In this document: piece after piece, positions 82 to 21,061 of the stretch
Position numbering within the stretch: the stretch's first letter is position 1
Layout of the letters: every line of letters begins with the position of its first letter
NCBI RefSeq assembly: GCF_018854495.1
Contig: NZ_JABBDR010000016.1
Span: 1-27,285, forward strand
Reading direction: 5' to 3'
Length of the DNA: 27,285 bases
From: Acidithiobacillus ferruginosus
Lineage (GTDB): Bacteria; Pseudomonadota; Gammaproteobacteria; Acidithiobacillales; Acidithiobacillaceae
Program-made: the position numbers and the translations under genes
The notes under the pieces: model-generated
Database searches by the model: none
What the model saw: the letters and a program-made list of their open reading frames with translations, nothing else
Told to the model about the DNA's origin: nothing

Positions 82-327
82 ATGAGTAATGAGAAATCCA
101 ACCGACCCGAACTGATCATTGACAACGAGCGCTACGACTGGGATGAGGAGACCATTACCGGCAAACAAATTCGTGTTCTTGCGTCGCTCCCGGACGACGT
201 CCAGATATTTCACAAGGTTCCCGGACATCCCGACGAAGAGGTCAAGGACGACACGGTCGTCGATCTGACTAAACAGAAGGGTCCCGACCGGTTCTCAACG
301 CAGGCAGTCGGCTCGCAGGCGGGGTGA
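82..327 (+). CDS. single-domain ubiquitin-like protein (Multi_ubiq / BilA-like)
   Basis: An 81-residue protein that most resembles the prokaryotic multiubiquitin domain: a beta-grasp opening (LIIDNERYDW), the TITGKQIRVLASLP helix region, and the acidic DDTVVDL stretch followed by DRFST near the end. Many family members carry several tandem domains, while this one has a single copy. It would be the modifier transferred by the E1- and E2-like proteins encoded immediately downstream. The C-terminus ends in AG after a flexible tail (TQAVGSQ), so the last residue is glycine without the eukaryotic diglycine. The next gene starts 6 bases after the stop, so the genes are almost certainly co-transcribed. 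The start is the only ATG that keeps the first beta strand. Family assignment is by motif recall and the very consistent neighbourhood. Confidence 0.82.
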   Translation: MSNEKSNRPELIIDNERYDWDEETITGKQIRVLASLPDDVQIFHKVPGHPDEEVKDDTVVDLTKQKGPDRFSTQAVGSQAG

Positions 328-333
328 TGCACG

Positions 334-738
334 ATGCCGCTGCTCCTCAATTCAGATTATGCGGAACTCGCAGAACGCGGCCTTGACTACGTCGAAGATG
401 AAGAGCAGCGCTTCCTTGTGCTCCAGAATTACCCGTTACCAGATGAGCTCTACCATGAGAAAATCTGCGACGTCCTTGTCATAATTCCGCAGAACTACAA
501 CCAAGGCGGCATCGACATGCTCTGGACACATCCGCATCTAACGCGCATCGATGGCAAGCCCATTCCGAACATGAACCACCCCAGTGGTAGAGATAACCGC
601 ACCTATGGCGACAGGGAGTTCTGCCGGTGGTCGCGGCACTGGAATAACGCGCCAGTCATATGGCGGCCTGGCAAGGACAATGTTGTAACCATCCTGCGCC
701 GTATTGTCTGGGCCCTTGGGAACCCCGACGCAAAATGA
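334..738 (+). CDS. E2-like ubiquitin-conjugating protein, prokaryotic E2 family E type (BilB-like)
   Basis: A 134-residue protein with the layout of prokaryotic E2 family E: an N-terminal helix, a central beta meander with VLVIIPQNY followed by DMLWTHPHL, then REFCRWSRHW, WRPGKDN and a closing helix. In this fold the protein would accept the activated Ubl from the E1-like partner as a thioester and pass it to a target. Two cysteines exist, C45 and C97. C97, inside the conserved-looking FCRWSRHW segment, is the better candidate for the active site (inference). The gene follows the Ubl gene by 6 bases, and its TGA overlaps the ATG of the E1/JAB gene in an ATGA junction, implying translational coupling. 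Confidence 0.8.
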   Translation: MPLLLNSDYAELAERGLDYVEDEEQRFLVLQNYPLPDELYHEKICDVLVIIPQNYNQGGIDMLWTHPHLTRIDGKPIPNMNHPSGRDNRTYGDREFCRWSRHWNNAPVIWRPGKDNVVTILRRIVWALGNPDAK

Positions 739-2183
739 CGGCCGCCCGAATTACCCTGCTTGGCTCGCAGCACGATGCACTCGCGAACCACCTTGGCTCA
801 CATCCTGACTGCCATGAGAAGGCCGCAGTCGTGCTGTTTCGCAGGCTCCACATTCCGGTAGAAGGTCTGCCCGATTCTGACCGCTATATCGCACAGGAGG
901 TGATTCTTTTCGAGGACGCGTGGGTAACTGGCAGCTCCTCAGCACACATCGCGTTTCCCCTTACGCCGCTGCGCGAGCTATTCCGTAGGTGTGAGGAAGA
1001 GGGCCTTGCCTTTGGTTTCGTCCACAATCACCCGGGGGGCCCCGCAGCATTCTCAGCAATCGACGAACAAAACGAGCGCACGTTGCTGACAGCGCTAAGT
1101 AACCGCAACGGCCTTGACGTCACTTTCGTTGCGATGCTGTGGACAGAAGGGCAGTGGCTAGCCCGAACACGCACCGCTTGCTTCCCGAAGATGGCCATAC
1201 CAGTTCGGCACATCCTTGTTCTTGGAGATCGGATTACCTTGTATGGCTACAAAGAAAGCACAGATGAGCACACCGAAGTTCAGGCGCGGCAATCCGCCGC
1301 GTTCGGCAAACCCTTTGTCGACATGCTTCAGTCTCTACGCGTCGGCGTTCCCGGAAACGGCGGTACAGGCAGTCCGTTCGCGACCCTTGGCGCACGCGCC
1401 GGCATCGGTGAGCTCGTATTGATCGACAAGGACCCGCTCGCGGCCAGCAATCTCAATCGGGTCAGGGGTCTGATGAGAAGCGATGTCGGAGAAATCAAGT
1501 CTTACGCCCTCAAGACTTTCATCGAAGGCATCGGTTTATCCGTTAAAGTCGCCGCAATCGCGTCGGATATCGATATCGACCAGGCGGCCGTTGACGCCCT
1601 CGCCAGTTGCGACGTTATTGTCGGCTGTACCGATGATTTTGCTGGCCGTGAACTGATGAACGCGGCACTCTATGCCTACGCGCAACCCCTAATAGATATC
1701 GGACTAGGCGGTAAGGTCGACAATGGGCCCGACGGTCACCCCTACCTTCGTTATCACTTTGGGCGCATAAGCACCATTCTGCCCGAGAGTGGCCAGTGCC
1801 TTTTTTGTCAGGGCGTCATCAAAGACGTCTGGATTCAGGCCCAACTCGCGCGGCGCGAAAATCCCGATATCACCAGCGACGAGCTCAAGGAGCGATATCT
1901 CGAAGATGGCGGGACGGACGCGCCCGGTGTTGGGCCCTTCACCAGCGCCGCTGCGGATTTTGCCCTCGCAACGCTGTTCGATCTGATAAAGCCGTTCCGG
2001 CGATTTCCGCCAGAGCTTCGCCGCGACATGCTCTTCGTCGATTTCGTGAAGATGGAGATCAACAGCCACAAAACAGCGGGGAACTACGACTGTCCGTATT
2101 GTCGTGCGCACGAATTCCTTCTACTGAAAGAGTCTTGCAGACTCAATCGACCATTTCTCGGTAAGCGTGATGAGTTTTATTAG
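735..2183 (+). CDS. JAB/JAMM deubiquitinase fused to ThiF/E1-like adenylase (BilC-BilD fusion-like)
   Basis: A 482-residue two-domain protein. Residues ~1-150 are a JAB/JAMM metalloprotease: the zinc motif H97-N-H99 with S107 and D110 is intact and E28 is the likely catalytic glutamate. Such domains cleave Ubl precursors or conjugates. Residues ~195-460 are a ThiF/E1-type Rossmann domain with GNGGTGS (207-213), LIDKD (230-233), the NLNR adenylate-binding segment (239-242) and a GCTDD loop. C355/C358 and C453/C456 form two CxxC pairs that probably hold a structural zinc. The domain would adenylate the Ubl C-terminus. A longer in-frame opening exists upstream, but the ATG at 735 overlaps the E2 stop (ATGA) and begins directly at the JAB fold. 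The 3' end overlaps the next gene by 14 bases. Confidence 0.87.
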   Translation: MTAARITLLGSQHDALANHLGSHPDCHEKAAVVLFRRLHIPVEGLPDSDRYIAQEVILFEDAWVTGSSSAHIAFPLTPLRELFRRCEEEGLAFGFVHNHPGGPAAFSAIDEQNERTLLTALSNRNGLDVTFVAMLWTEGQWLARTRTACFPKMAIPVRHILVLGDRITLYGYKESTDEHTEVQARQSAAFGKPFVDMLQSLRVGVPGNGGTGSPFATLGARAGIGELVLIDKDPLAASNLNRVRGLMRSDVGEIKSYALKTFIEGIGLSVKVAAIASDIDIDQAAVDALASCDVIVGCTDDFAGRELMNAALYAYAQPLIDIGLGGKVDNGPDGHPYLRYHFGRISTILPESGQCLFCQGVIKDVWIQAQLARRENPDITSDELKERYLEDGGTDAPGVGPFTSAAADFALATLFDLIKPFRRFPPELRRDMLFVDFVKMEINSHKTAGNYDCPYCRAHEFLLLKESCRLNRPFLGKRDEFY

Positions 2184-2604
2184 TAGAGTTGTCGCATGGA
2201 TTAGTGGTCTCTTCGCCCCAGCCCCAGCCCCGGCATCAGGTCAGGTGCCGGAGCAAGCTCTGCCATGCGAGGTGCCTGTCCATTTTCCCTCTGTGTTGTT
2301 TGTCGATAAGCCCCCTCGTAATGAGGACATCGTGGCTGGCTATCTATACTGTGTCATGACCGCAGACAAGCCAAAATGGGCACTGTTCAAATGCCCTTGC
2401 CGGTGCGGTGATGTCGTTACACTCTCGCTCCAACCGGTGCACCGCCCCCATTGGCGCCTAACACGCACGCTCACCGGGCGGCCGACCCTGTACCCGTCGG
2501 TTTGGCGCGATAAGGGTTGTCTTAGCCATTTCTGGCTACGCGACGGTCGCGTTTCATGGTGCGCGGATACTGGAAGCTCCCCCGACCTCCGAATGTCGCG
2601 TTGA
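2170..2604 (+). CDS. DUF6527-like cysteine-rich protein of the Ubl operon
   Basis: A 144-residue protein that I match to DUF6527, a family repeatedly found beside bacterial ubiquitin-like operons. The core shows the cluster CPCRCG (C75, C77, C79), then LYPSVW, GCLSHFWLRDGRVSWC with C117, H120 and C131: a likely zinc-binding fold. Its function is unknown; a substrate-recruiting or E3-like role is inference. The N-terminus (about 20 residues, hydrophobic/amphipathic, then a short Ala-Pro repeat) is unusual and could be a membrane or partner tether. A GTG at 2167 directly precedes the chosen ATG at 2170. The gene overlaps the JAB-E1 gene by 14 bases, so it belongs to the same operon. The 182 bases between its stop and the IS element hold nothing recognisable. 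Confidence 0.7.
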   Translation: MSFISRVVAWISGLFAPAPAPASGQVPEQALPCEVPVHFPSVLFVDKPPRNEDIVAGYLYCVMTADKPKWALFKCPCRCGDVVTLSLQPVHRPHWRLTRTLTGRPTLYPSVWRDKGCLSHFWLRDGRVSWCADTGSSPDLRMSR

Positions 2605-2786: not shown

Positions 2787-3936
2787 GGGAACCTCTGATC
2801 TGGCGTTTTGGTATACTGGCTGGCATCAGCGATGCGTAGGGGGATGGCATGGCCGGGCAGATGACCTTTGCGGAAGAACAGGATCTTTCCCGTCGGCGGA
2901 AGCCGACCAAGCGGGAGCGCTTTCTGACGGAGATGGATGCCGTCATTCCCTGGGCGCGCCTGGTGGCCTTGATCGAGCCCCATTATCCCCGAGGCGGGAG
3001 CGGCCGCAAGCCGATGCCGTTGGAGCGCATGCTACGCATTCATTTTCTGCAGCAGTGGTATGCCTACTCGGATCCTGGCATGGAAGAAGCCCTCTACGAG
3101 ATCCCGCTGCTGCGGCGCTTTGTGGGGATTGATCTGGGCCGGGATTTCGTTCCCGATGAAACGACCATCCTGAAATTCCGTCGTCTGCTGGAGCGGCACG
3201 ACCTGGCGCGCGCGATCTTCGAGGAAGTGCAGGTCGTCCTGCGGGAGAAAGGCCTGCTGCTCGCCGAAGGCAGGATGGTGGATGCCACCCTGATCCATGC
3301 GCCGAGTTCCACCAAAAACCGGGAACGGAAACGGGACCCGGAGATGAGCTCGACGAAAAAGGGGAATCAGTGGTACTTCGGGATGAAGGCCCATGTGGCG
3401 ACGGATCTGCAAGGGATTGTCGAAGCGGTGGAGGTCACGGCGGCGAAGGTCCCGGACCACAAAGCCCTGGACGCCTTGCTGACGGGAGAAGAACCAGTCG
3501 TCCTGGCGGACCGGGGCTACGACTATCCCTCCGTCCACGAGCGCCTGGCCGCGCAGGGAACCCGGGACGCCGTGGCCTTGCGCCGCACTCCCGGGCAGAG
3601 GAAAGGTCTGGCGGCCCTGAAGCGCTACAACCGGAGTGTGGCCCGGATCCGTGCCTTGAGAGAGCACGCCTTTCGGGTGCTGAAGTGCCAATTCGGGTAC
3701 CGCAGAACCCGCTATCGGGGCCTGGCCAAGAACGGCGCCCAGCTCACCACGCTCTTTGCCCTGGCCAATCTCTACCTGCTGCGGCGTCGCCTGCTGGCTG
3801 CCTGAGGCGTACTGCGCCCCCAAATCCGCCCCCAGGGGCGGAATGGACGGGATCTCGCCCACAAAATCGCTGAATGGGCCTGTTTCGGGCAAATGCGCGG
3901 GGAGAAATCGGCGTTTCATGCCTGATCAGGAGTTCC
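2787..3936 (+). mobile_element. IS5-family insertion sequence, complete
   Basis: About 1.15 kb with imperfect terminal inverted repeats. The left end reads GGGAACCTCTGATC (2787-2800); the right end, read on the minus strand from 3936, gives GGAACTCCTGATC, so the inner arms match apart from two transposed bases. TTA lies directly outside both ends (2784-2786 and 3937-3939) and fits a 3-bp TNA-type target duplication, as in the IS1031 subgroup of IS5. One intact transposase gene occupies most of the element. About 130 non-coding bases lie between its stop and the right repeat. Exact ends are uncertain by 1-2 bases. Confidence 0.8.
2849..3805 (+). CDS. IS5-family DDE transposase
   Basis: A 318-residue cut-and-paste transposase. 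It has the IS5 N-terminal region (RRKPTKRERFLTEMD, LRIHFLQQWYAYSDPGMEEAL, then DETTILKFRRLLE) and the DDE core: first aspartate in MVDATLI, second in LADRGYD, and the glutamate in REHAFRVLK followed by QFGYRRTRYRGLAKN. Length and all catalytic segments are normal, so the enzyme looks functional. The ATG at 2849 lies 62 bases inside the left inverted repeat, with a GGGGGATGG stretch just upstream as ribosome-binding site. Codon use is more GC-rich than in the adjacent replication genes, in line with independent arrival. Confidence 0.93.
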   Translation: MAGQMTFAEEQDLSRRRKPTKRERFLTEMDAVIPWARLVALIEPHYPRGGSGRKPMPLERMLRIHFLQQWYAYSDPGMEEALYEIPLLRRFVGIDLGRDFVPDETTILKFRRLLERHDLARAIFEEVQVVLREKGLLLAEGRMVDATLIHAPSSTKNRERKRDPEMSSTKKGNQWYFGMKAHVATDLQGIVEAVEVTAAKVPDHKALDALLTGEEPVVLADRGYDYPSVHERLAAQGTRDAVALRRTPGQRKGLAALKRYNRSVARIRALREHAFRVLKCQFGYRRTRYRGLAKNGAQLTTLFALANLYLLRRRLLAA

Positions 3937-4694: not shown

Positions 4695-5825
4695 ATGGCC
4701 GGCTACGTTGGATGGGCAGCCATCCTCAAATGCAATCATGCGCTGAGCACCGATAATTTACGGCGGGCGCTCCAAAACAGCACGGACTCACAGGATATTT
4801 CCGAGCTTCAACAGATACTGGACACGAGGACCGCTTATCGCAAGGCGACCAACACAACACCACCAGCTGACCTTCATCCGATTCTACAATTGATGGTGAC
4901 GCGGATGCCGCAAAAGCCCTATTTTTCTGATGATCTGTCGCGAGGTATCAGGATCAGGGAGAAATCAGCGGCGCTTCGTCATCGTGAAATCCAGCCGAAT
5001 CAGCCGTGGGAAAGGCAATGCCTCGCCTTGGATATTGACCATACAGAGCAGCTTGTAGGGTTGCCACCTCCAAACGTAACAGTCACGAATACGGCAAACG
5101 GGCATCGCCATGTCGCCATCGTTTGGAAAAAGCCTGTGCTTGTTGGACCCAATGCAAGTCGCAAGGCAGAGGCATATTACACAGATATTGCTCGTGCTGT
5201 TGGTCAGTGTTGGAAAGCTGATCCCAACTATACGGGTTTGTTGATGCATAATCCGCTGCATTCGCATTGGCGTACGGAGATATACCAGCCAGAACCCTAC
5301 GAATTGAACGACTTTCGTGATGCGTTACGCATCGTACGAGAAATGCCGACAGCCGCGAATCACCCACGATTTAAGGGTGGCGAGTGGGTCGACCGGTACG
5401 CGGCATTGGGGCGCAACTGTGCCACCTGGGAGGCGTGCCGGTGGCCAGCCTATTCTATGGGCCGGGATGCTACTGTTGATGCGGTACTGCGGTTGGTTGA
5501 GAGTTACAACGCCACGCACAACAGTCCCCCTTTAGGACATCGCGAATGCAGGCACATAGCCTTATCCATCAGCAACTACGTCTTGGCAAGCAAACGCAAA
5601 GGTCACAGCATGACGGATACTGACTGGCGTCAATGGGTAGAACATACCCATACGCCAGAGGTGCAGGCCAGACGCGGGAAGGCCAGCGGCGAAGCCAGAC
5701 GCGGTGCCAGCGAACAGGAAAGGGCCACGGCACGGCTGATGCGGGCCGATGGCAGCAGCTATGGGGTCATCTCTCAGGTGCTGGGTATCCCTGAATCCAC
5801 GATTAAGCGGTGGTGCAAAAATTGA
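4695..5825 (+). CDS. ColE2-type plasmid replication initiation protein (Rep, replicase family)
   Basis: A 376-residue protein with the ColE2-type Rep/primase signature: QCLALDIDHTEQ, then PPPNVTVTNTANGHRHVAIVW, a PNYTGLLMHNPLHSHWRT motif, and a PriCT-like segment around GRNCATWEACRWPAY. Rep proteins of this family bind their origin and synthesise a short primer for DNA polymerase I. The last ~60 residues (ERATARLMRADGSSYGVISQ, IPESTIKRWCKN) form an extra helix-turn-helix, plausibly the origin-binding part. No strong ribosome-binding site precedes the ATG, which lies three in-frame codons after the stop of the upstream gene. Length is normal or slightly long and the frame is intact. Codon use is less GC-biased than in the flanking operons, as expected for plasmid DNA. 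Confidence 0.83.
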   Translation: MAGYVGWAAILKCNHALSTDNLRRALQNSTDSQDISELQQILDTRTAYRKATNTTPPADLHPILQLMVTRMPQKPYFSDDLSRGIRIREKSAALRHREIQPNQPWERQCLALDIDHTEQLVGLPPPNVTVTNTANGHRHVAIVWKKPVLVGPNASRKAEAYYTDIARAVGQCWKADPNYTGLLMHNPLHSHWRTEIYQPEPYELNDFRDALRIVREMPTAANHPRFKGGEWVDRYAALGRNCATWEACRWPAYSMGRDATVDAVLRLVESYNATHNSPPLGHRECRHIALSISNYVLASKRKGHSMTDTDWRQWVEHTHTPEVQARRGKASGEARRGASEQERATARLMRADGSSYGVISQVLGIPESTIKRWCKN

Positions 5826-6087: not shown

Positions 6088-6660
6088 TCATGGGTGAGCA
6101 CGGTCACGCAATTTTTGCATGCACGCTTGCACCGCCCTGGCTTGCCAGATGGCATCATCCAGGGCGTTATGGGCGACCCCTTTTTCTTCGACGGGGATAC
6201 CGCCTTGCGGATAGGCCAAGGAAAAAATGGTACGGCAGTCCCGGTCGACATTATACCGCACCGGCCAGCCCATGCCCGGACCCAATTCTACCCGGAACCG
6301 CGCGTACAGGAGTTGTAGTTGCGCGGAATCGAAAGCGGGTCCGTTGGACCACAGCCGCAACCTTTCCCCTGCAATGCGCTGCAGAAAGCGGGAGAACTTG
6401 CCCAATCCGGCGGCCACTGAATGGGCACAGGGGCCGTGGAAGGCTGCATTACGCGCTTCAAGGGTTTGCTCCATCCACCATTCAATGGTGTCGATGTCCA
6501 CCAGGGCACCTTTGTCGATCTGCTCTTGGGCAGGCAAGCGGATGGCAAAGGTCTGCCCGATCTGGTCAGACTCTGGATCGAAAATGACGGCACCAATGGT
6601 GAGCACTACCGCTCCCAGTTGGGTGGACAGCGCCTCAATATCCAACATCACGTCATGCAT
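6088..6660 (-). CDS. DEDDh 3'-5' exonuclease (Rv2179c / phage DexA-like)
   Basis: A 190-residue protein with the three exonuclease motifs of the DnaQ/RNase T fold: DIEAL near the N-terminus (D7, E9), NGPAFDSAQL in the middle, and AHNALDDAIWQA near the end (H and D of DEDDh). The NGPAFD segment and overall length fit the Rv2179c-like exoribonuclease / phage DexA group better than DNA polymerase epsilon subunits. It is the last gene of the long minus-strand operon and overlaps the preceding phosphoesterase gene by 8 bases. The start at 6660 has GGGAG a suitable distance upstream, and the longer in-frame opening into the neighbouring gene is rejected. Substrate, RNA or DNA, is not evident. Confidence 0.82.
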   Translation of the reverse strand: MHDVMLDIEALSTQLGAVVLTIGAVIFDPESDQIGQTFAIRLPAQEQIDKGALVDIDTIEWWMEQTLEARNAAFHGPCAHSVAAGLGKFSRFLQRIAGERLRLWSNGPAFDSAQLQLLYARFRVELGPGMGWPVRYNVDRDCRTIFSLAYPQGGIPVEEKGVAHNALDDAIWQARAVQACMQKLRDRAHP

Positions 6661-7447
6661 AGCTATCTCCCTTGCTCGTGGCATTCGTTTCCACGATCCG
6701 GTATTCCCGTGCCCGGCCTTCATCGGGATAGCCCCAGGGGTTGCAGAGCACCCGCGTCTTGCCGATGCGGTAATCCATAGGATCATGCACATGACCATGA
6801 ATCCAGACGTCGGGCTTCCAACGCTGAATGCGACGCTCCTGATTGGAGCAGAAGCCACCCGATATGGGGCTCCCGGCGAATCGGGGATGCTGGCTTTTGT
6901 AACTGGGCGCGTGATGGGTAATCACCACCGTCGGCCCCTCGTGAGAATGATGGTTGAACTGGTCCTCCAGCCAAGCGATGCTGTCCTGGTGGACCTTGAG
7001 AATGGTTTCCGGGGTGATGCTGCCGGACACGCCCTTGCAGGGTACAAGCCCATCATGAATCACCTCGAAGTCGGACATCATGTGCCGACAGTTGCGCATC
7101 TGTTTCCCGCTGGCGAAATCCGTCCAGAGGGTGGCGCCCAGGAACCGGGTGCCACCGATCACCACCGACTCGTTTTCCAGCAGAAACGCCTGGTGGTCAT
7201 GGGCGATGGCATCCCGGTACTTTTGCCGGTCATCTGGGAATACGCCATGGTAATATTCGTGGTTCCCCAGCACAAAAATCACGGGACCGGCGTAGGCCAG
7301 ACGCAGCTTGCGCAAAAACTCCGTGTAATACTCCGGCATGGTGTCCACGTCGCCAGCCAGGACCAGCACGTCCACACCGGATAGCCCGGTCAGCGTGATG
7401 GATGAATCGAACTCCAGGTGGAGGTCGGAGGCGTAGGCGATTCTCAT
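6653..7447 (-). CDS. calcineurin-like metallophosphoesterase (operon copy 3)
   Basis: A 264-residue two-metal phosphoesterase. Motifs in order: SDLHLE (metal 1), LAGDVD, LGNHEYY, a central TLWTDF segment, VITHHAPS, and IHGHVH. All metal ligands are present, so it should be catalytic. The substrate cannot be read from sequence; relatives hydrolyse phosphodiesters such as cyclic nucleotides, RNA ends or dinucleoside polyphosphates. It is clearly paralogous to the phosphoesterase at 14663-15466: both share the F-G-x-TLW-x-DF block, a HHAP segment and the HxDYRIG...N.(W/F)GYP ending. The start lies 10 bases after the preceding gene, and the stop overlaps the exonuclease gene. Confidence 0.87.
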   Translation of the reverse strand: MRIAYASDLHLEFDSSITLTGLSGVDVLVLAGDVDTMPEYYTEFLRKLRLAYAGPVIFVLGNHEYYHGVFPDDRQKYRDAIAHDHQAFLLENESVVIGGTRFLGATLWTDFASGKQMRNCRHMMSDFEVIHDGLVPCKGVSGSITPETILKVHQDSIAWLEDQFNHHSHEGPTVVITHHAPSYKSQHPRFAGSPISGGFCSNQERRIQRWKPDVWIHGHVHDPMDYRIGKTRVLCNPWGYPDEGRAREYRIVETNATSKGDSYA

Positions 7448-8385: not shown

Positions 8386-9948
8386 TCAATCTCCCAATGC
8401 GTCGAGAATCTCTTGCGACAGAGCCGCAGGCTCCGCCGCGTTCCGTTTTTCCTTGGCCGCCGTCAAGGCCGACTGGAAACGCTCCAGGTCTTTGCGGGAA
8501 AGATTCTGGCTGGTCACAAACGACGCCCGTTCCTCTCTGGATGGCAAAGACAAGGTTTTTTCTGCCAGGGCGCGCATCTGTTCATCGCTCCACCCGGACG
8601 CTTCATGAGACTGTCCATTCCCGGCAGGCTGGTCGCCAGAGTCGACCGTTTCCCGCGGCGGACGGGCATCGGCCATATACATCTTCATGAAATCGAACGT
8701 ACCGGGTCGATACGATGGGTTCAAGCTGGACAGATTATTTCGCAGGGTCGTCATACGCATAGTCGCCCGTTGCGATACAGGTTTGACAACATGCTTCAAA
8801 AACGTGTCATAGGCAGGATACCCCATGGTCTCCTTGTGCGCCTTCTCTGCGTTCCCACCGAAAAACCCGTATTTGTACCCGGTGACCACCCCCAAAAACT
8901 GGGTGAACACATAGATCACGCCCAACAAAAGGACACCAACATCATTGGCGCTTTTTTTGTCGCTGATGATGGCGTCAGTGGCTTTTTTCTGAGATTGATG
9001 GGCGGCCTGCGCAACGGCTGCAGGCAACGGCGCATCTCCTGCCGCTCCCGTTGTCGATGGCGATGAGAACATGTTCTGAAAACTCTGCGTTCCACCTGCT
9101 GCCGAAGCGGAAGACGGTGCCGACGACATGCCAACAGCTTCACTGTCCAGGTGCTTATTCAGTTCGTCGTGGCGATACCATGTGGACAATACGAACGCCA
9201 AAAGGATAAGTGTTGTCGCGGCAATGATGTTCAAGTATTTCTTTTTCGCGTCGCCAAGCGTGATAATCTCCAGGCGAGCCGCCAAGCGAGTTAACGGAGC
9301 ATTCAATTCATCCTTGTCTTGATCCATGTCCGGGGAAATAACCCCGATGGCTTCGACGGGCTTATCATGTCCGCCCACCACGAATCCGCCACGTTGACGA
9401 AAATTGGCTGCAATATGAGACACCAGCGAATTGTGATACAGATCATGCCCTGCGTTGTGCGTGAAGATCAGCGTAATGACAGCCAGCACGAGCGCTAGCG
9501 CCGCGCCGATAAACAGCGCGCCGTCCGGCGTGATTTCCCGCGAAACCAACGGAGCGATCAAGGCGCCCGTGCCGAATGCTTCGGCAACGGTGAGACCAAA
9601 GAGAGTCGCCCATGTCCAGCGGCTCATGGGTTTACGGTCACTCTGCTTCGCGAGCACCAGATATTTGCGATACTGGTCGAAGCTCTTGCGGGTTATCTCG
9701 GGTACGCCGTTTTTGTAGTAATCATACAGCGCTTTTTCCACAGGAATGAGTGTTTCCGGCGAATCATTGTTCTCGCCTGTACGCTCATCCCCTCGGCTCC
9801 ACTTCGCCATTTTCCCCAAAAAGGGCAACCATACCCAAAAATCTTTACCCAACAGCGAAGTAGTGTAACTGCTCCACACCAGAAATACGGTGGAAAGCAG
9901 CACCACGGCGACCACCACTATTTCAATGACTCGGGACATATCAAACAT
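8386..9948 (-). CDS. polytopic membrane protein, function unknown
   Basis: A 520-residue protein with about five predicted membrane helices: residues ~8-28, two adjacent helices at ~127-175 (FGTGALIAPL; GAALALVLAVITLIF), one at ~243-262 (IIAATTLILLAFVLSTW), and one near ~345-365 (VGVLLLGVIYVFTQFLGVV). A long Ser/Ala-rich linker separates the last two. The C-terminal ~150 residues are soluble and charged, with a helical tail (SDEQMRALAEKTLSLPSREE). The start has AGGAG about ten bases upstream. It lies between the OmpA-like lipoprotein gene (24-base gap) and the vWA-like gene, and the three probably form an envelope assembly. No family recognised. Confidence 0.6.
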   Translation of the reverse strand: MFDMSRVIEIVVVAVVLLSTVFLVWSSYTTSLLGKDFWVWLPFLGKMAKWSRGDERTGENNDSPETLIPVEKALYDYYKNGVPEITRKSFDQYRKYLVLAKQSDRKPMSRWTWATLFGLTVAEAFGTGALIAPLVSREITPDGALFIGAALALVLAVITLIFTHNAGHDLYHNSLVSHIAANFRQRGGFVVGGHDKPVEAIGVISPDMDQDKDELNAPLTRLAARLEIITLGDAKKKYLNIIAATTLILLAFVLSTWYRHDELNKHLDSEAVGMSSAPSSASAAGGTQSFQNMFSSPSTTGAAGDAPLPAAVAQAAHQSQKKATDAIISDKKSANDVGVLLLGVIYVFTQFLGVVTGYKYGFFGGNAEKAHKETMGYPAYDTFLKHVVKPVSQRATMRMTTLRNNLSSLNPSYRPGTFDFMKMYMADARPPRETVDSGDQPAGNGQSHEASGWSDEQMRALAEKTLSLPSREERASFVTSQNLSRKDLERFQSALTAAKEKRNAAEPAALSQEILDALGD

Positions 9949-9972
9949 GACTGTGTTTCTCCTGTTCGGGAA

Positions 9973-11553
9973 TCAATGTTGCAGGCTGAAAATGGGCTGG
10001 GACATGTATTTCTTCCCATTTAAGGTGTAGTACAGTCGAGAGCCTCCCTGATATTCCCCTGTGGGGACCACCATATCGATGCATTTGGCCGGACCATTGA
10101 CGAACACGCGATATAGGGTTTTGTTCTGGCCACGGTAGACATTGACTGGCACCTTGCCGCTAAACACGGGAGCCTGCCGTGTATTCCCATGGTAATCCTT
10201 GTAGATCAGGACGTCGGGACGCGGCACGTAAGTCCCCGCCCCTTTGAGGACGTTGGCGTGGGTGATGGCCACCAGATTTTTTCCAGCATGGGCCACCCAC
10301 ACCGCGTCATAAAAGCCGGAGACGTAATCCCTGGGCGGAAGCGTCTGGCCGCTGGCCAGATTGCGCACAGCGGTCACGGGGTGCGGATGACTGGACAGGC
10401 ACGCCGGGACGATCACCGGAGCATCCGCCTGAGCGGAAGAAATCAGCCCGAACATAGAATGGGACGCCGGAGCGGCACCCAGATCCACCGGGATGCCGTT
10501 CCCGGACAGGGGCGTTCCGCCAAAACCATCACCGGCACCCATACGCGCCCGGGCGTGAACCGCCTTGACCGGCACGGGCGCCGGAATCGGATAACGCACG
10601 GCGGGGCCGACGTTCGCCTCCGGGGTTGGTGCCGACACATTGGGCTGCGGTACAAAATCGCCGGCGTTCACCGTCCGTCGCTGCACATAATCCTGTATAT
10701 CGGATACGGTGGGCACATCCACGATCTGCACCCGGTTGTTTTCCTTTTCGCCACGAGCGGTATGCACCGGAGCGATGGGCAGGGCGTCACCGGCGCCCTG
10801 ATAATAGATGTTGCCCGCAGGAACTCCGTTTTCGGCGAAAACGGTGGCCACCGCGCGGGCGCGCTGCTGTGACAACTTCGCGGCGCTCATGCCGGATATG
10901 GCCTGATCCATCAGGTTGGTATGCCCAACGATCAGTATCTTGTGGTTCACAGCCGCCAGTCGCTGCTCCGGCGTCGCATTGGCGGGGAGATGCTTTTCCA
11001 CCACAGCGGGCGCATATTGCCGCGCGATCTGCGAGAGATAGGCTTGCGCCTGCGGCGTGATCAAAGCCGTCCCGGGGGCAAATTCGCCTCCCTTGTTTTC
11101 CACCTGCACATCCAGGCCGATGGCGGCGGACGGCTTTTGCGCCGGGCTCGTCGGGGCGACGCCTAGCTTGGCGGACGTGATCCTGGCGCTGGCGATCTTT
11201 AGGTCGTTCGCCTTGGCGATTTTGTATAGCTCACAGCGTCGCGCGTCCAGGAAATGCCCTACCAGGAAACCGCCACCGACGCCAACGACTGCGCCGACGA
11301 CCGCACCCTCCACGCCATGGGTAAGCCCGCCTACAAGGGCACCTGTCACTCCGCCCAGAACCATGCCGATGTTCCGGTCGTTGTTGGAGCAGGGACTGGG
11401 GCTGTCGAAGATGCTGGAAAGCGTGTTTTCCCTCTGCGAAGCGCCGCCGGGGCTTCCAGGAGGGGCGGACACCGTGGCACACCCGGTCATGGTGGATACA
11501 ATAAGCCCAATGGCGATCGCCCTGGGAACATGGGAAGTCTTCTTCTTTTTCAA
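9973..11553 (-). CDS. OmpA-domain lipoprotein with glycine zipper
   Basis: A 526-residue protein starting at a TTG codon: GGAG (11561-11564 on the opposite strand) is placed 7 bases before it, and the KKKK / hydrophobic / STMTGC signal follows directly, giving a lipoprotein cysteine at C25. The frame is open further upstream but nothing there fits. After the signal come a glycine-zipper segment (GMVLGGVTGALVGGL, AVVGAVVGVGGGFLVG), an OmpA/MotB-type peptidoglycan-binding domain (ILIVGHTNLMD, LSQQRARAVATVFAENGV, YYQGAGDALPIAP, ENNRVQI), and a ~230-residue C-terminal region with no recognised domain. It probably anchors an outer-membrane assembly to the cell wall. Confidence 0.72.
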   Translation of the reverse strand: MKKKKTSHVPRAIAIGLIVSTMTGCATVSAPPGSPGGASQRENTLSSIFDSPSPCSNNDRNIGMVLGGVTGALVGGLTHGVEGAVVGAVVGVGGGFLVGHFLDARRCELYKIAKANDLKIASARITSAKLGVAPTSPAQKPSAAIGLDVQVENKGGEFAPGTALITPQAQAYLSQIARQYAPAVVEKHLPANATPEQRLAAVNHKILIVGHTNLMDQAISGMSAAKLSQQRARAVATVFAENGVPAGNIYYQGAGDALPIAPVHTARGEKENNRVQIVDVPTVSDIQDYVQRRTVNAGDFVPQPNVSAPTPEANVGPAVRYPIPAPVPVKAVHARARMGAGDGFGGTPLSGNGIPVDLGAAPASHSMFGLISSAQADAPVIVPACLSSHPHPVTAVRNLASGQTLPPRDYVSGFYDAVWVAHAGKNLVAITHANVLKGAGTYVPRPDVLIYKDYHGNTRQAPVFSGKVPVNVYRGQNKTLYRVFVNGPAKCIDMVVPTGEYQGGSRLYYTLNGKKYMSQPIFSLQH

Positions 11554-11801
11554 GGAGCATCTCCTTTGCAGTACTTGTTTTGCGGAATGGAAAGGGACTA
11601 TCCGGTTATTGTTATGGCGAACTTCCCCTATCGTCCGACATAATATGCGCCGCGGGCGCAGCCGACAATATCTCCGCCCGCACGAAGGATTTTCCACCCG
11701 CAGCGTGCAGGGACAACGCTTTCGAGTAGCTGCTATATATGCTCATCAAGCGTTTCTCATCCATATCCATTTCTTTTGCCGTAACTTGCCAATGGAAAAT
11801 A
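11554..11801 (-). other. 248-base gap in the operon with a doubtful small ORF
   Basis: This is the only large gap inside the minus-strand operon. It contains a short open frame, 11770 to 11612, of 52 codons (starting MDMDEKRLMSIYSSYSKALS), with only a weak purine stretch upstream. It could instead hold an internal promoter for the OmpA / membrane / vWA genes, but no convincing -35/-10 pair was found. Confidence 0.25.
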
Positions 11802-12413: not shown

Positions 12414-13745
12414 TCAGCGGTACAGGGCGTCCACATCCACGCCCATGTCTGCCCCCAGAGCCACATCCCGCAGAATCTCCGCCCACCAGGGCAGAGGCTC
12501 CGCGCTTTGCCGGAGGAGGACGCCCCTCTCTATTTCCAGGAGTAAGGGTGGCTGATAGTCGGCCTGCAGGTTCAGGTCCACCGTGGCGCGGTTATCGTAC
12601 ACGCGCAGGCGCCGCGCAAGATGCGCCACCAGCGCGGCGTGGATAAAACCGCCGAACAGATTGCGTTCAATCTGGGCCTCTGGAATCTCTACCCGATCAC
12701 TGCGCAGGGCACGGGATCGCACCCGCTGGACCAGCGTATCCAGATCATGAACACCCACATAATCCAGATCCACTACAGCACCTGCCCGAATGCTTTCGAG
12801 TACCTGATCGAATCGGCCCGCAAGGGAGAACGTGGTTTCCACCAGCAGATTTCGACGGGCATCCAGGCCCCGCCGCCAGTCCGCATTGGAGAGCAGATAG
12901 GCCACCTGCAATTCTGGCATGGGTTCATTGGCGGCGGGAATCAGGCCCATGGCCCGATCTGCGTCATCTTCGTCTGGCAGCCATTGCCGGATGGCCTCAC
13001 GGGCCATCGTGACCAGGCGCGCGTGATCTTTCGGAAGCGACGGCAGATAACGATCCACGTCGACCCATGCGCTTTCCGCAATGCCCAACTGGCGGCGCAG
13101 CGGCGCGGAGAGGAGCGTTTTGCCGGAACCGATACTGCCGGCGAGATAATGCAAAACCGGTGCACTCCCGTCGGCACGATGACAGTAGATCCGCGCTTCA
13201 GCCATTTCTTCCGCATAGTGGGCCAGTCGGATAGCCACGAAACGCCGGTAGGTTAACGCATCCTGTTTGGGATCGGCGGGCAGCCTGCGTGCGGCGAGAG
13301 GTCCTTCCGGTGGCAATCCCTTTTGTTTGAATCTGGCTTCCCGCAACTGTTGAAAGGCAGCAGGCGTCAGTCCGCCGTTGGCGTGCTCGGGACAGGCCAC
13401 ATGCCAGTAGGCGCCACTGACCAATAAGGTGCCCGGCAAACCGCAGTGCTCACAGATCCGACGTGAGCGGTCACCATAATCCTCCACGATCTGAAACAGG
13501 CCGTGTTTCTGCGCGTCCGTCAGTGTCGCGTCGTAGCCATAGTAATAGCGCAGCGTCCCGAATTTCTGTTTGACCTGGGTGACGTGGATACCTATGCCGT
13601 TCTCCTGGCAGAAGGTCTCTACCGCCTGAGACAAGGCGCGGAGTAGTGGATACCAGCCGTCTTCGCACTCAAAATGGTTTTCCCGGCAGCCGCTGTAGAG
13701 TGCCGGATAATCCCGTCGCAAGGCGTGTTCCAGGGCGATGTCCAT
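12414..13745 (-). CDS. zeta-toxin-like P-loop kinase with zinc-binding N-terminal domain
   Basis: A 443-residue protein. Residues 1-125 resemble phage-type hypothetical proteins (GWYPLLRALSQ, VKQKFGTLRYYY) and end in a C98-x2-C101 ... C118-x2-H121 zinc motif. Residues ~195-410 are a P-loop kinase: Walker A GSIGSGKT (203-210), VDVDRYLPSLP, LLVETTFSLAGRFDQVLESI, VDLDYVGVHDLDTLVQRVRSRA, then IPEAQIERNLFGGF and RLRVYDN. That order matches zeta toxin / chloramphenicol phosphotransferase-like kinases. Zeta enzymes phosphorylate UDP-GlcNAc and its relatives; the substrate here is unknown. No epsilon-type antitoxin is adjacent. It follows the PPP phosphatase gene by 21 bases and precedes the broken phosphoesterase by 17. 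Confidence 0.75.
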   Translation of the reverse strand: MDIALEHALRRDYPALYSGCRENHFECEDGWYPLLRALSQAVETFCQENGIGIHVTQVKQKFGTLRYYYGYDATLTDAQKHGLFQIVEDYGDRSRRICEHCGLPGTLLVSGAYWHVACPEHANGGLTPAAFQQLREARFKQKGLPPEGPLAARRLPADPKQDALTYRRFVAIRLAHYAEEMAEARIYCHRADGSAPVLHYLAGSIGSGKTLLSAPLRRQLGIAESAWVDVDRYLPSLPKDHARLVTMAREAIRQWLPDEDDADRAMGLIPAANEPMPELQVAYLLSNADWRRGLDARRNLLVETTFSLAGRFDQVLESIRAGAVVDLDYVGVHDLDTLVQRVRSRALRSDRVEIPEAQIERNLFGGFIHAALVAHLARRLRVYDNRATVDLNLQADYQPPLLLEIERGVLLRQSAEPLPWWAEILRDVALGADMGVDVDALYR

Positions 13746-15555: not shown

Positions 15556-17085
15556 TCACTGCAGACGCCTCAGTGCCCCATCTTCATCCATCTGTGCTTT
15601 GGCCTCCAGTTGCAGCAGAGATCGTGTGATCACGGCCAGCCGCCGCAGTGAACTGGGTTTACGCTGAAATCGCCGTCGCAATGCCCCGGCCACCTGTGGA
15701 TTCAGGGACGGCAACGCCCAGGGTTCCGTGCCCAGATCACGGGCGATATCCTTGAGGATATTCGTCAAAATACGGTCAAAATCCTCTCTTGCGGGTTCCC
15801 CCACCCGAATGATGGTGAAGCGCGATTGCAAGGGTTCGGGCAGATCCTCCACATCATTGGCCGTGGCGGCCCAGTTGACGGACGAATAATCCACCGGCCC
15901 AAGCAAAAATTCGTCCGTGACGCGACTGGCCGTCGCCGGTTCCAGCATCGTCAGCAACGTTTCCCAAAGGCGGCCGTTGTTCCGCCCCGTGCCGATTTTC
16001 TCCATTTCATCCAGACAGACCAGCGGGTTGGCCAGGCGGTTTTCGAGCATGAATTCGACCAGATAACCCGCCCTCGCGGAGCTCCACCCGCGCGCTGTAC
16101 CCTTGAGCATCATGTTATCGTTCATCCCCGCCATCGTCATGAATGCCGTTGGCAACCTCAACGCCTCCCCCAGGCTTTGCACGAAGCGGCTCTTTCCGAG
16201 CCCAGGATTCCCCACCAGCAGGAGAGGGCGGAACTTCAGCACCGGTTGTCCAGTGACGCGATTGAGCGCCCATTCATTCTCCAGCATATCCATGGCCCGC
16301 GACATCCAGGGGTATTCCCTCCGCAAATTCTCCGTCCAGGACAGGGTGCCCGGCCAGGTCTGCAAGGGCAGGGGCCGAAGCAACGGTTTGAAACGCTCCA
16401 ACGCCTGATTTTCCTTGTTGTCATTTCCTGGGGCGATACTGTTCAGTATTTGACGGCTGGGCTCCGAAGCGGGCTTGTTCCGGAGCAGCAACATCTCCGC
16501 CTGCCATTTCAACCCCGTCAATTGCAGATCATCGAAGGACAACGCTCGCATGATGCCCAACACCTCCTCGGCCAGAGCGGCATCTTTCCGCCCCACGGCC
16601 GCCTGCAAACCCAGCCCGAAGGCCACCAGACGCATCATGCTAAAGCGTTGATTCTGGTTTTTCCAAAGGAAATCAGATCGTTCCTCTTCGGCCTGCCATC
16701 TCTGGAAAGCCTGCAACCAACGGGGGTCGTACGCCGTCCTGCCAGCCTCAATATTCATTCGCAACAGCAGCATCTGCCCCATCAAAGAACCCCATTCCGC
16801 GCCGATCGCCAACCACTGTTCGGCAATGTTTCGATCGTTTGGCAGTCGGCTATCCCCTGCGAGATAACAGCGCCCGATATCCACCAACCCTTCGCGCACA
16901 CTCAGATCGACGATGTTTTTGGGTTCGCGGGCGGACACCAGGTCGAAATCTTCATCCAGCAGCCTCAGTTCAATGCTGTCCCAGATCGCAAGAAAGACGT
17001 CTGTGTTCCGTTTGCCGGATTCTTCCACGTCATTCTTCAGTTTTTCGCCCAGAGCGAGCAGTTGGTCGATACATTGTGCGGTCAT
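15556..17085 (-). CDS. AAA+ ATPase with Lon-like ATPase core and Sel1-like N-terminus
   Basis: A 509-residue ATPase, first gene of the minus-strand operon. The start at 17085 is set by a perfect AAGGAGG five bases upstream (17091-17097); a longer in-frame opening upstream crosses the promoter and is rejected. Residues ~1-250 are helical, with a Sel1/TPR-like segment around IGRCYLAGDSRLPNDRNIAEQWLA. Residues ~270-480 form the AAA+ core: Walker A GNPGLGKS (292-299), Walker B LVCLDEMEK, sensor 1 in NWAATAN, and an arginine finger in LQSRF. The order resembles the Lon ATPase domain, but no protease domain follows, so it is probably a remodelling or disassembly motor. Its partners are presumably the downstream enzymes. 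Confidence 0.83.
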   Translation of the reverse strand: MTAQCIDQLLALGEKLKNDVEESGKRNTDVFLAIWDSIELRLLDEDFDLVSAREPKNIVDLSVREGLVDIGRCYLAGDSRLPNDRNIAEQWLAIGAEWGSLMGQMLLLRMNIEAGRTAYDPRWLQAFQRWQAEEERSDFLWKNQNQRFSMMRLVAFGLGLQAAVGRKDAALAEEVLGIMRALSFDDLQLTGLKWQAEMLLLRNKPASEPSRQILNSIAPGNDNKENQALERFKPLLRPLPLQTWPGTLSWTENLRREYPWMSRAMDMLENEWALNRVTGQPVLKFRPLLLVGNPGLGKSRFVQSLGEALRLPTAFMTMAGMNDNMMLKGTARGWSSARAGYLVEFMLENRLANPLVCLDEMEKIGTGRNNGRLWETLLTMLEPATASRVTDEFLLGPVDYSSVNWAATANDVEDLPEPLQSRFTIIRVGEPAREDFDRILTNILKDIARDLGTEPWALPSLNPQVAGALRRRFQRKPSSLRRLAVITRSLLQLEAKAQMDEDGALRRLQ

Positions 17086-17120
17086 GTCAGCCTCCTTTTT
17101 GCGGAATGACAATGGTGCAG

Positions 17121-17149
17121 AGTATAGCGATGTAATACACACAAGTCAA
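17121..17149 (-). promoter_or_regulatory. near-consensus sigma70 promoter of the ten-gene minus operon
   Basis: Read on the minus strand: TTGACT (17149-17144), a 17-base spacer, then TATACT (17126-17121). Transcription would start near 17114, leaving a ~30-base leader with the AAGGAGG site before the AAA+ gene. Each hexamer has five of six consensus bases and the spacing is ideal. Confidence 0.8.
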
Positions 17150-20318: not shown

Positions 20319-21061
20319 ATGCAAACCGTTACCTTGAGCGACGCGCAAATGGAAGGCTTGCGCCAAATCTTTTTCCGTCTGCCCGATACCCGAAGCAAAC
20401 TGGGCAAGCAGCATCCCCTCCCGGCCATCCTGACGGTGGCCGTGGCCGCCGTCCTGACGCGGGCCGAAAGTTATGTCGCCATCGCCGAATGGGGCGGTCG
20501 CCTGACCCAGACCCAACTGAAGCGCATCCGCGCCCGCTTCAATCCCAGAATTCAACGGTATGTGGCCCCCTCCGAACCGACCATCCGGCGCGCCTTGCAA
20601 GGCGCCGATGTGGAGGCCCTGGATGCGGCGATCGGTGCCTGGCTACTGGGTGCGGCAGGCTTCGAAGCGGTGGCCGTCGATGGCAAAGTCCTCAAAGGCG
20701 CCGTGCGCGCAGAGGGGGCTCAGGTGCATCTGCTCAGCGCGTTCCTGCATGGACAGGGGTCACCATCGCGCAAAAGGAAATCGCCCGGAAAACCAACGAA
20801 ATTCCAGAACTGCGCCATCTGCTTCAGGACGGCGACATCGCGGGCAAGGTCGTCACTGCCGATGCCCTGCATACCCAGCGGGAAACCGCCCGCTTCCTCG
20901 TCGAAGACAAAAAAGCCGATTATCTCTTCACCGCCGTCAAAGGCAATCAACGAAAACTCCGCGACGGTCTGACGGGCCTCCCTTGGGGCGATTGCATCAG
21001 ACAACCCTTTACTGGAGCGGCTGTTCAAATTCGAGTGGATTGGTGTAGAATCAAAAAATAG
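20319..21061 (+). pseudogene. ISAs1-family transposase, frameshifted and 3'-truncated
   Basis: The N-terminal part in one frame (FFRLPDTRSKLGKQHPLPAI, ESYVAIAEWG, PSEPTIRRALQG, VAVDGKVLKGA) is a typical ISAs1 H-repeat transposase. At the GGGG run near 20757 one base is missing, and the protein resumes in the next frame as VTIAQKEIARKTNEIPELRH, VVTADALHTQRETARFLVE and YLFTAVKGNQRKL. Homology stops after GLPWGD (about 20990), roughly 100 residues before the usual end. The remainder to 21061 is unrelated sequence. It is not functional as it stands. Confidence 0.82.

Follow-up and report, generated by a model that had tools for sequence, protein, structure and literature searches.

A ubiquitin-like tagging operon of the Bub type with a cysteine-bearing E2 in Acidithiobacillus ferruginosus

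The closest described relatives of the operon reported here were classified as type 6e by Iyer et al. (2006; PMC1779556; this and the two later sources with PMC numbers are cited from excerpts), and comprise one to three repeats of a ubiquitin-like protein (Ubl), an E2/RWD-like protein, a fusion of a JAB protease to an E1 activating enzyme (JAB-E1), and a metal-binding protein Y with the motif C-x3-C-x(35-38)-H-x2-C. A solo Ubl is recorded there in one species (Amac), and the E2s are stated to lack a catalytic cysteine, which a 2024 review restates by calling the E2 of this operon type inactive (PMC11354881). Operons of this kind are now called Bub, as defined by Ye et al. and Gong et al., and structures of the Citrobacter proteins BubCD, a fusion of deubiquitinase (DUB) and E1, and BubB, an E2, have been solved (PDB 9ea4, 9ea5, 9eae and 9eav). 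A survey of 544 Bub operons found that 219 adjoin CapW or CapH+CapP and 59 adjoin CapK+CapS (EMBO J 2026; PMC13373217). Here we confirm that a 27,285-nucleotide stretch of Acidithiobacillus ferruginosus DNA (contig NZ_JABBDR010000016.1; hereafter the window) contains a ubiquitin-like tagging operon, as a preliminary description made from the sequence alone had proposed, and we report that its E2 has a cysteine, Cys97, at a position occupied by glutamine in most relatives.

Analysis of open reading frames (ORFs) and of Pfam domains, called with family cut-offs, identified four overlapping or closely spaced genes that span 82-2604 (Table 1). Their products exceed the cut-offs for PF14452 Multi_ubiq (Ubl, 4e-9), PF14462 Prok-E2_E (E2, 3e-32), PF00899 ThiF (JAB-E1, 1.5e-30) and PF20137 DUF6527 (fourth protein, 3e-23), which bears out the families and the single-domain Ubl of the preliminary description and supplies the Multi_ubiq and E2 homology on which it depended. 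The operon had also been called overlapping, which holds from the E2 gene onward: the ATG of JAB-E1 overlaps the E2 stop codon as ATGA and the DUF6527 ORF, which has an in-frame GTG 3 bp upstream of its start, overlaps the end of JAB-E1 by 14 bp, whereas the E2 gene starts 6 bp past the Ubl stop. The best matches among solved structures were Citrobacter BubCD for JAB-E1 (residues 5-427, E 1.5e-25) and BubB for the E2 (7e-7 as a single sequence and 6e-13 as a 16-sequence profile), and the Ubl matches multi-ubiquitin proteins, BilA among them. The Prok-JAB score within JAB-E1 lies under the Pfam cut-off (20.4 bits against 25); the JAB assignment nevertheless stands because of the alignment with BubCD and the JAMM-site residues E28, H97, H99, S107 and D110, which are invariant across 16 aligned JAB-E1 sequences. 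Together with GNGGTGS at residues 207-213 (GxGGxGS) and Cys97 of the E2, four of these JAMM residues (H97, H99, S107 and D110) are the residues that had been named beforehand, and all are present. JAB-E1 furthermore contains a CxxC...CxxC pattern, which is a predicted zinc site.

Table 1. Coordinates of the operon genes and the adjoining insertion sequence (IS) end in the window
Feature	Position	Strand	Description
Ubl	82-327	+	81 aa; single Multi_ubiq domain; tail ...VGSQAG, last residue = conserved Gly
E2	334-738	+	134 aa; Prok-E2_E family; Cys97 in CRWSRHW; predicted E2 fold, BubB closest
JAB(JAMM)-E1(ThiF) fusion	735-2183	+	482 aa; BubCD-like; JAMM residues intact
DUF6527	2170-2604	+	144 aa; N-terminal basic amphipathic helix, then beta domain
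IS3-family element end	1-75	not assigned	recurs at seven further contig ends in the genome

A JAB-E1 alignment was used to scan a single genome of each species. This returned 141 relatives, and the best 80 were kept as loci that contain JAB-E1 by construction. Position 97 of the E2 is Cys, in C-RWSRH, in all 19 members of the close clade (the window and L009-L026) and Gln in all 62 of the wide clade (L027-L088) as well as in Citrobacter BubB. A mixed-profile E2 search of a large protein set gave 1719 matches; among the 120 listed, 105 had Gln, 15 had Cys and none had another residue at the motif position, every Cys protein being at least 132 aa long and every Gln protein shorter. The window's own E2 is one of these 15, and some of the others will be the same genes as in the fetched loci. 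In a JAB-E1 tree of 78 rows, 18 of them Cys, the two groups fell on opposite sides of one branch of length 1.47 with support of 100/100; the tree was midpoint-rooted, with a warning on the long L068 row, and left out L017 (frame broken, 274-aa piece), L076 and L079 (no whole JAB-E1 ORF), ORFs containing X having been dropped. Cys97 is present as described beforehand, but it is not one of the usual key residues: among the relatives examined, it marks this clade off from the rest.

The Cys clade extends over several phyla, mostly as metagenome-assembled genomes (MAGs), with hosts in Gammaproteobacteria, Bacteroidota and Balneolota, a betaproteobacterial MAG, and MAGs of Geobacter, Rhodothermota and Bacillota. 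Its Ubls are all separate genes (77-140 aa, longest ORFs), and Gln-clade Ubls comprise 18 fused to the E2, 11 short ones (76-113 aa), 32 longer ones and one not found. Because the Gln clade also has short Ubls, the single Ubl is not unique to the Cys clade. In 75 of the 80 loci the four genes are all present, in the same order and on the same strand (17/18 in the close clade and 58/62 in the wide clade). Matches to JAB-E1 were found in 131 of 72,556 plasmid records, none reaching 60% identity; the 20 listed are at most 36% identical, and no close-clade member (at least 44% identity) is among those 20. Across 57 genomes (that of the window, 16 others from the genus, and 40 from the family, order and class), full-length JAB-E1 occurs solely in that of the window, the other matches being partial and around the ThiF region. 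Three Sphingomonas relatives (L064, L073 and L087) form a separate case, with a protease that is probably dead, judging from their sequences, because all five JAMM-site residues are replaced (GRQTI or SRQTE).

The preliminary description had presented DUF6527 as a fourth, coupled gene. The coupling is real: a neighbourhood search detected DUF6527 in 78 of 81 sets (the 80 loci and the window). Among 398 genomes of the phylum, Prok-E2_E exceeds its cut-off in six (the window with Cys, three with Gln, and two without the motif by the pattern used) and DUF6527 in 18, and in all six genomes with Prok-E2_E a DUF6527 gene lies no more than ~3 kb away on the same contig. A DUF6791-ThiF gene adjoins DUF6527 in 7/7 of the E2-less DUF6527 loci examined; beyond those seven, and outside the window's own genome, there are six further E2-less rows over the DUF6527 cut-off (G403, G219, G113, G116, G331 and a second in G308), as well as one row below it (G401). 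Because all E2 genomes and 7/7 E2-less loci show the pairing, DUF6527 goes with these E1s in the phylum sample. On these counts we reject DUF6527 as an added gene and regard it as integral to operons of this kind.

In the window, the predicted ligands of DUF6527 (C75-x3-C79-x37-C117-x2-H120) keep the spacing of the Iyer motif with the last pair reversed, and CCCH is found in 70 of 78 aligned DUF6527 rows. At L021, DUF6527 is fused to the C-terminus of JAB-E1, and the basic amphipathic helix with which the separate proteins begin is, judged by eye, missing. The moment of this helix is in the top 10% of shuffles for 19 of 30 proteins and not for the other 11. This helix may serve to dock DUF6527 onto the E1; alternatively, it may act at a membrane. 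Two further observations concern this family: in the DUF6527 proteins of six wide-clade loci with short single Ubls (L054, L058, L071, L072, L085 and L086) the predicted metal ligands two and three are gone while the His is kept, and the window's own genome encodes a second DUF6527 protein near a contig start (L123:264-671; G000:C273).

Taken together, we conclude, with a probability of roughly 0.6, that the window encodes an operon for Ubl conjugation of the Bub type (Iyer type 6e), which belongs to a separate clade with a Cys E2 and works as follows. Genes, homology, residue patterns, the clade split, neighbours and the IS end are observed; from them we infer the catalytic steps, target, induction and silencing. 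The JAB half would trim precursors of the Ubl so that they end on the conserved Gly, and could also take the Ubl off again, and the ThiF half would adenylate the Ubl C-terminus. In the JAB-E1 alignments of both clades, no conserved Cys occupies the crossover-loop position, where E1s usually hold their catalytic Cys, which suggests that the Ubl would move from the adenylate directly to Cys97 of the E2 and then to a target amine. DUF6527 would serve as a dedicated partner, which zinc may stabilise and which may be tethered to the E1. In relatives, DNA damage probably switches the operon on, and in the window an IS3 insertion has severed the operon from its native promoter and Shine-Dalgarno sequence, which may leave it silent or IS-driven.

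The last of these steps rests on the boundary upstream of the operon. Base 1 of the contig already lies in the end of an IS3-family element, a feature absent from the preliminary description; it runs to base 75, which leaves 6 bp to the Ubl ATG, and the same end, 75-79 bp long, is found at seven other contig ends of the genome. It has replaced the native 5' region of the Ubl gene, and there is no Shine-Dalgarno sequence at that place, such as the aaaggagg that precedes the L009 start, which suggests that the window copy may be poorly expressed. A transposase gene with DDE_Tnp_1 and DUF772 domains lies directly downstream (2849-3805), so the operon sits between two insertion elements. These features raise the possibility, which we judge to fall somewhat short of an even chance, that the window copy is a relic, with intact genes that went unexpressed after the IS3 insertion and no present function in its host. 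Such a reading would fit the absence of any sigma-70-like promoter from a crude scan of 1-2900 (1.5 expected in shuffles), as well as the sporadic distribution, with only partial, ThiF-like matches in the 16 same-genus and 40 further genomes. However, the four open frames and the existence of a 96%-identical JAB-E1 in other data indicate a sequence that is not visibly decaying, and IS ends can supply promoters, the contig starting at base 1 within such an end. Among other clade members, L021-L024 and L026 likewise lack a clear Shine-Dalgarno sequence by eye, so its loss alone is no proof of silence.

The neighbours of the Cys-clade operons bear on when they are used. CapK+CapS-like pairs lie upstream at L010, L011, L012, L014 and L018, and the L012 CapS-like protein matches CapS structures 9z72 at 5e-53 and 9z71 at 5e-49. 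Helix-turn-helix (HTH) and M78 genes, resembling CapH+CapP, lie upstream at L013, L015, L016 and L017, with L015 matching CapP 7t5t at 5e-11, and WYL (CapW-like) proteins are found at L020, L024 and L025, at L024 with one intervening gene before the operon. Such regulators thus adjoin 12 of the 18 Cys-clade relatives, a count that includes near-copies (L010/L011; L015/L016/L017), hence fewer independent cases, and leaves out an M78 gene in another arrangement at L009; none of the three types was seen among the upstream genes scanned at L019, L021, L022, L023 and L026. On this basis a DNA-damage-inducible role for the operon in relatives is likely, and the neighbours tie the Cys clade to DNA-damage-controlled immune-type loci. 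The preliminary description had pointed to the anti-phage function of the related Bil operons; in the excerpt of PMC13373217 such a function is said to be undemonstrated even for known Bub operons. It is quite possible, if not favoured, that the operon modifies proteins in response to DNA damage or general stress and plays no part against phages, as the adjoining regulators are described as DNA-damage sensors in the same source. In contrast, these regulators also adjoin CBASS (cyclic-oligonucleotide-based anti-phage signalling system), Bil, Thoeris and other immune operons (PMC13373217), and the sporadic distribution argues against a purely stress-related role.

We also considered whether Cys97 might be a structural or lineage marker rather than a thioester cysteine, with both clades using one chemistry free of an E2 cysteine and centred on RWSRH or the E1. 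We regard this as possible but rather doubtful. The motif is common to both clades, W99, S100, R101 and H102 occurring in 81/81 E2s and R98 in 79/81; both clades lack the conserved crossover-loop Cys; and BubB, which has Gln, has nonetheless been solved in complex with BubCD. However, motif-bearing E2s have Cys or Gln only, both in the 81 of the loci set and in the 120 matches listed, whereas another E2 cysteine, C45, varies inside the Cys clade (13/19). Furthermore, Cys97 sits where the eukaryotic order of E2 features, which we take to be YP, Cys, WxP, helix and NPD, would place the catalytic Cys, and we infer that it occupies that position. A more specific proposal, that the Cys clade runs a two-enzyme cascade in which an E1 without a catalytic Cys passes the Ubl directly from the adenylate to the E2 cysteine while the Gln Bub clade conjugates without an E2 cysteine, seems unlikely to us; if true, the clade pair would be a natural experiment on the gain or loss of E2 thioester chemistry.

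The remainder of the window contains further genes. A Replicase-family (PF03090) protein with a C-terminal HTH at 4695-5825 represents a plasmid-type replication gene, because of which part of the contig may be plasmid-derived; among plasmids, 2600-27285 matches only one from Acidithiobacillus, over 93 bp at 85%. A calcineurin-like phosphoesterase gene lies at 6653-7447. On the minus strand, a 520-aa protein without a Pfam or PADLOC match adjoins an OmpA/Gly-zipper protein that weakly resembles ZorB (7e-6; 8386-11697), and 12414-13745 and 15556-17142 encode a Zeta_toxin-like protein, whose score only just reaches the Pfam cut-off, and an AAA ATPase. A DDE_Tnp_1-associated transposase fragment with overlapping frames (20319-20972, plus strand) is probably a broken IS.

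Comparison with known systems places the operon beside Bub. Type II CBASS, with its E2-E1 fusion Cap2 and nucleotidyltransferase, was rejected: the four genes gave no nucleotidyltransferase match, and the PADLOC models listed (25 of 31) are E1-E2 models that match only the ThiF part of JAB-E1. Although BilABCD likewise joins Ubl, E2, JAB and E1 in a single operon and the Ubl is related to BilA and other multi-ubiquitin proteins, a Bil system is very improbable, since the window has JAB and E1 in one ORF (735-2183) where BilC and BilD are separate genes, a one-domain Ubl where BilA has two domains, top E1 and E2 matches to Bub, and W103, N105 and W110 at the offsets of the BilB CEHH motif (Cys, Glu +6, His +8, His +13; PMC11354881), as the preliminary description of a related but distinct system would lead one to expect. 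The seven DUF6791-ThiF + DUF6527 operons share a ThiF E1 and DUF6527 with the window, and L111 a Multi_ubiq Ubl as well, but DUF6791 stands where JAB would be, perhaps comparable to the domain X of Iyer et al. (2006), and no Prok-E2_E match was found in those genomes.

The architecture itself, which had been thought distinct, is already in print: type 6e, as excerpted, has the same four parts in the same setting, including an E1 of ThiF type with JAB joined to its N-terminus, a Multi_ubiq-type Ubl in the same operon and an E2/RWD-fold partner of Prok-E2_E type. The metal motif differs in ending H-x2-C where DUF6527 of the window ends C-x2-H at equal spacing, and Cys97 conflicts with the E2 of row 6e, described as lacking the conserved Cys, so we file the window operon as a variant sister clade. 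This Cys/Gln split is the part worth following and appears new, no paper title addressing it having been found in a search that leaves aside Ye et al. and Gong et al. Bub pathways resemble ubiquitination, yet the E2s found in such operons have been described as inactive, and a sister clade that differs at one E2 position offers matched pairs for testing E2 thioester use. Like the window, Citrobacter Bub has the DUB-E1 fusion in the same order and at similar length and an E2 of the same fold and family, and related Bub operons have the same kinds of regulators. In contrast to Citrobacter BubB with its Gln, the window clade carries Cys97; its E1 retains CxxC...CxxC, of which the Citrobacter alignment lacks the first CxxC, the second being beyond the aligned region; and its Ubl is single, with a tail of the SQAG, SSAG or STPG type.
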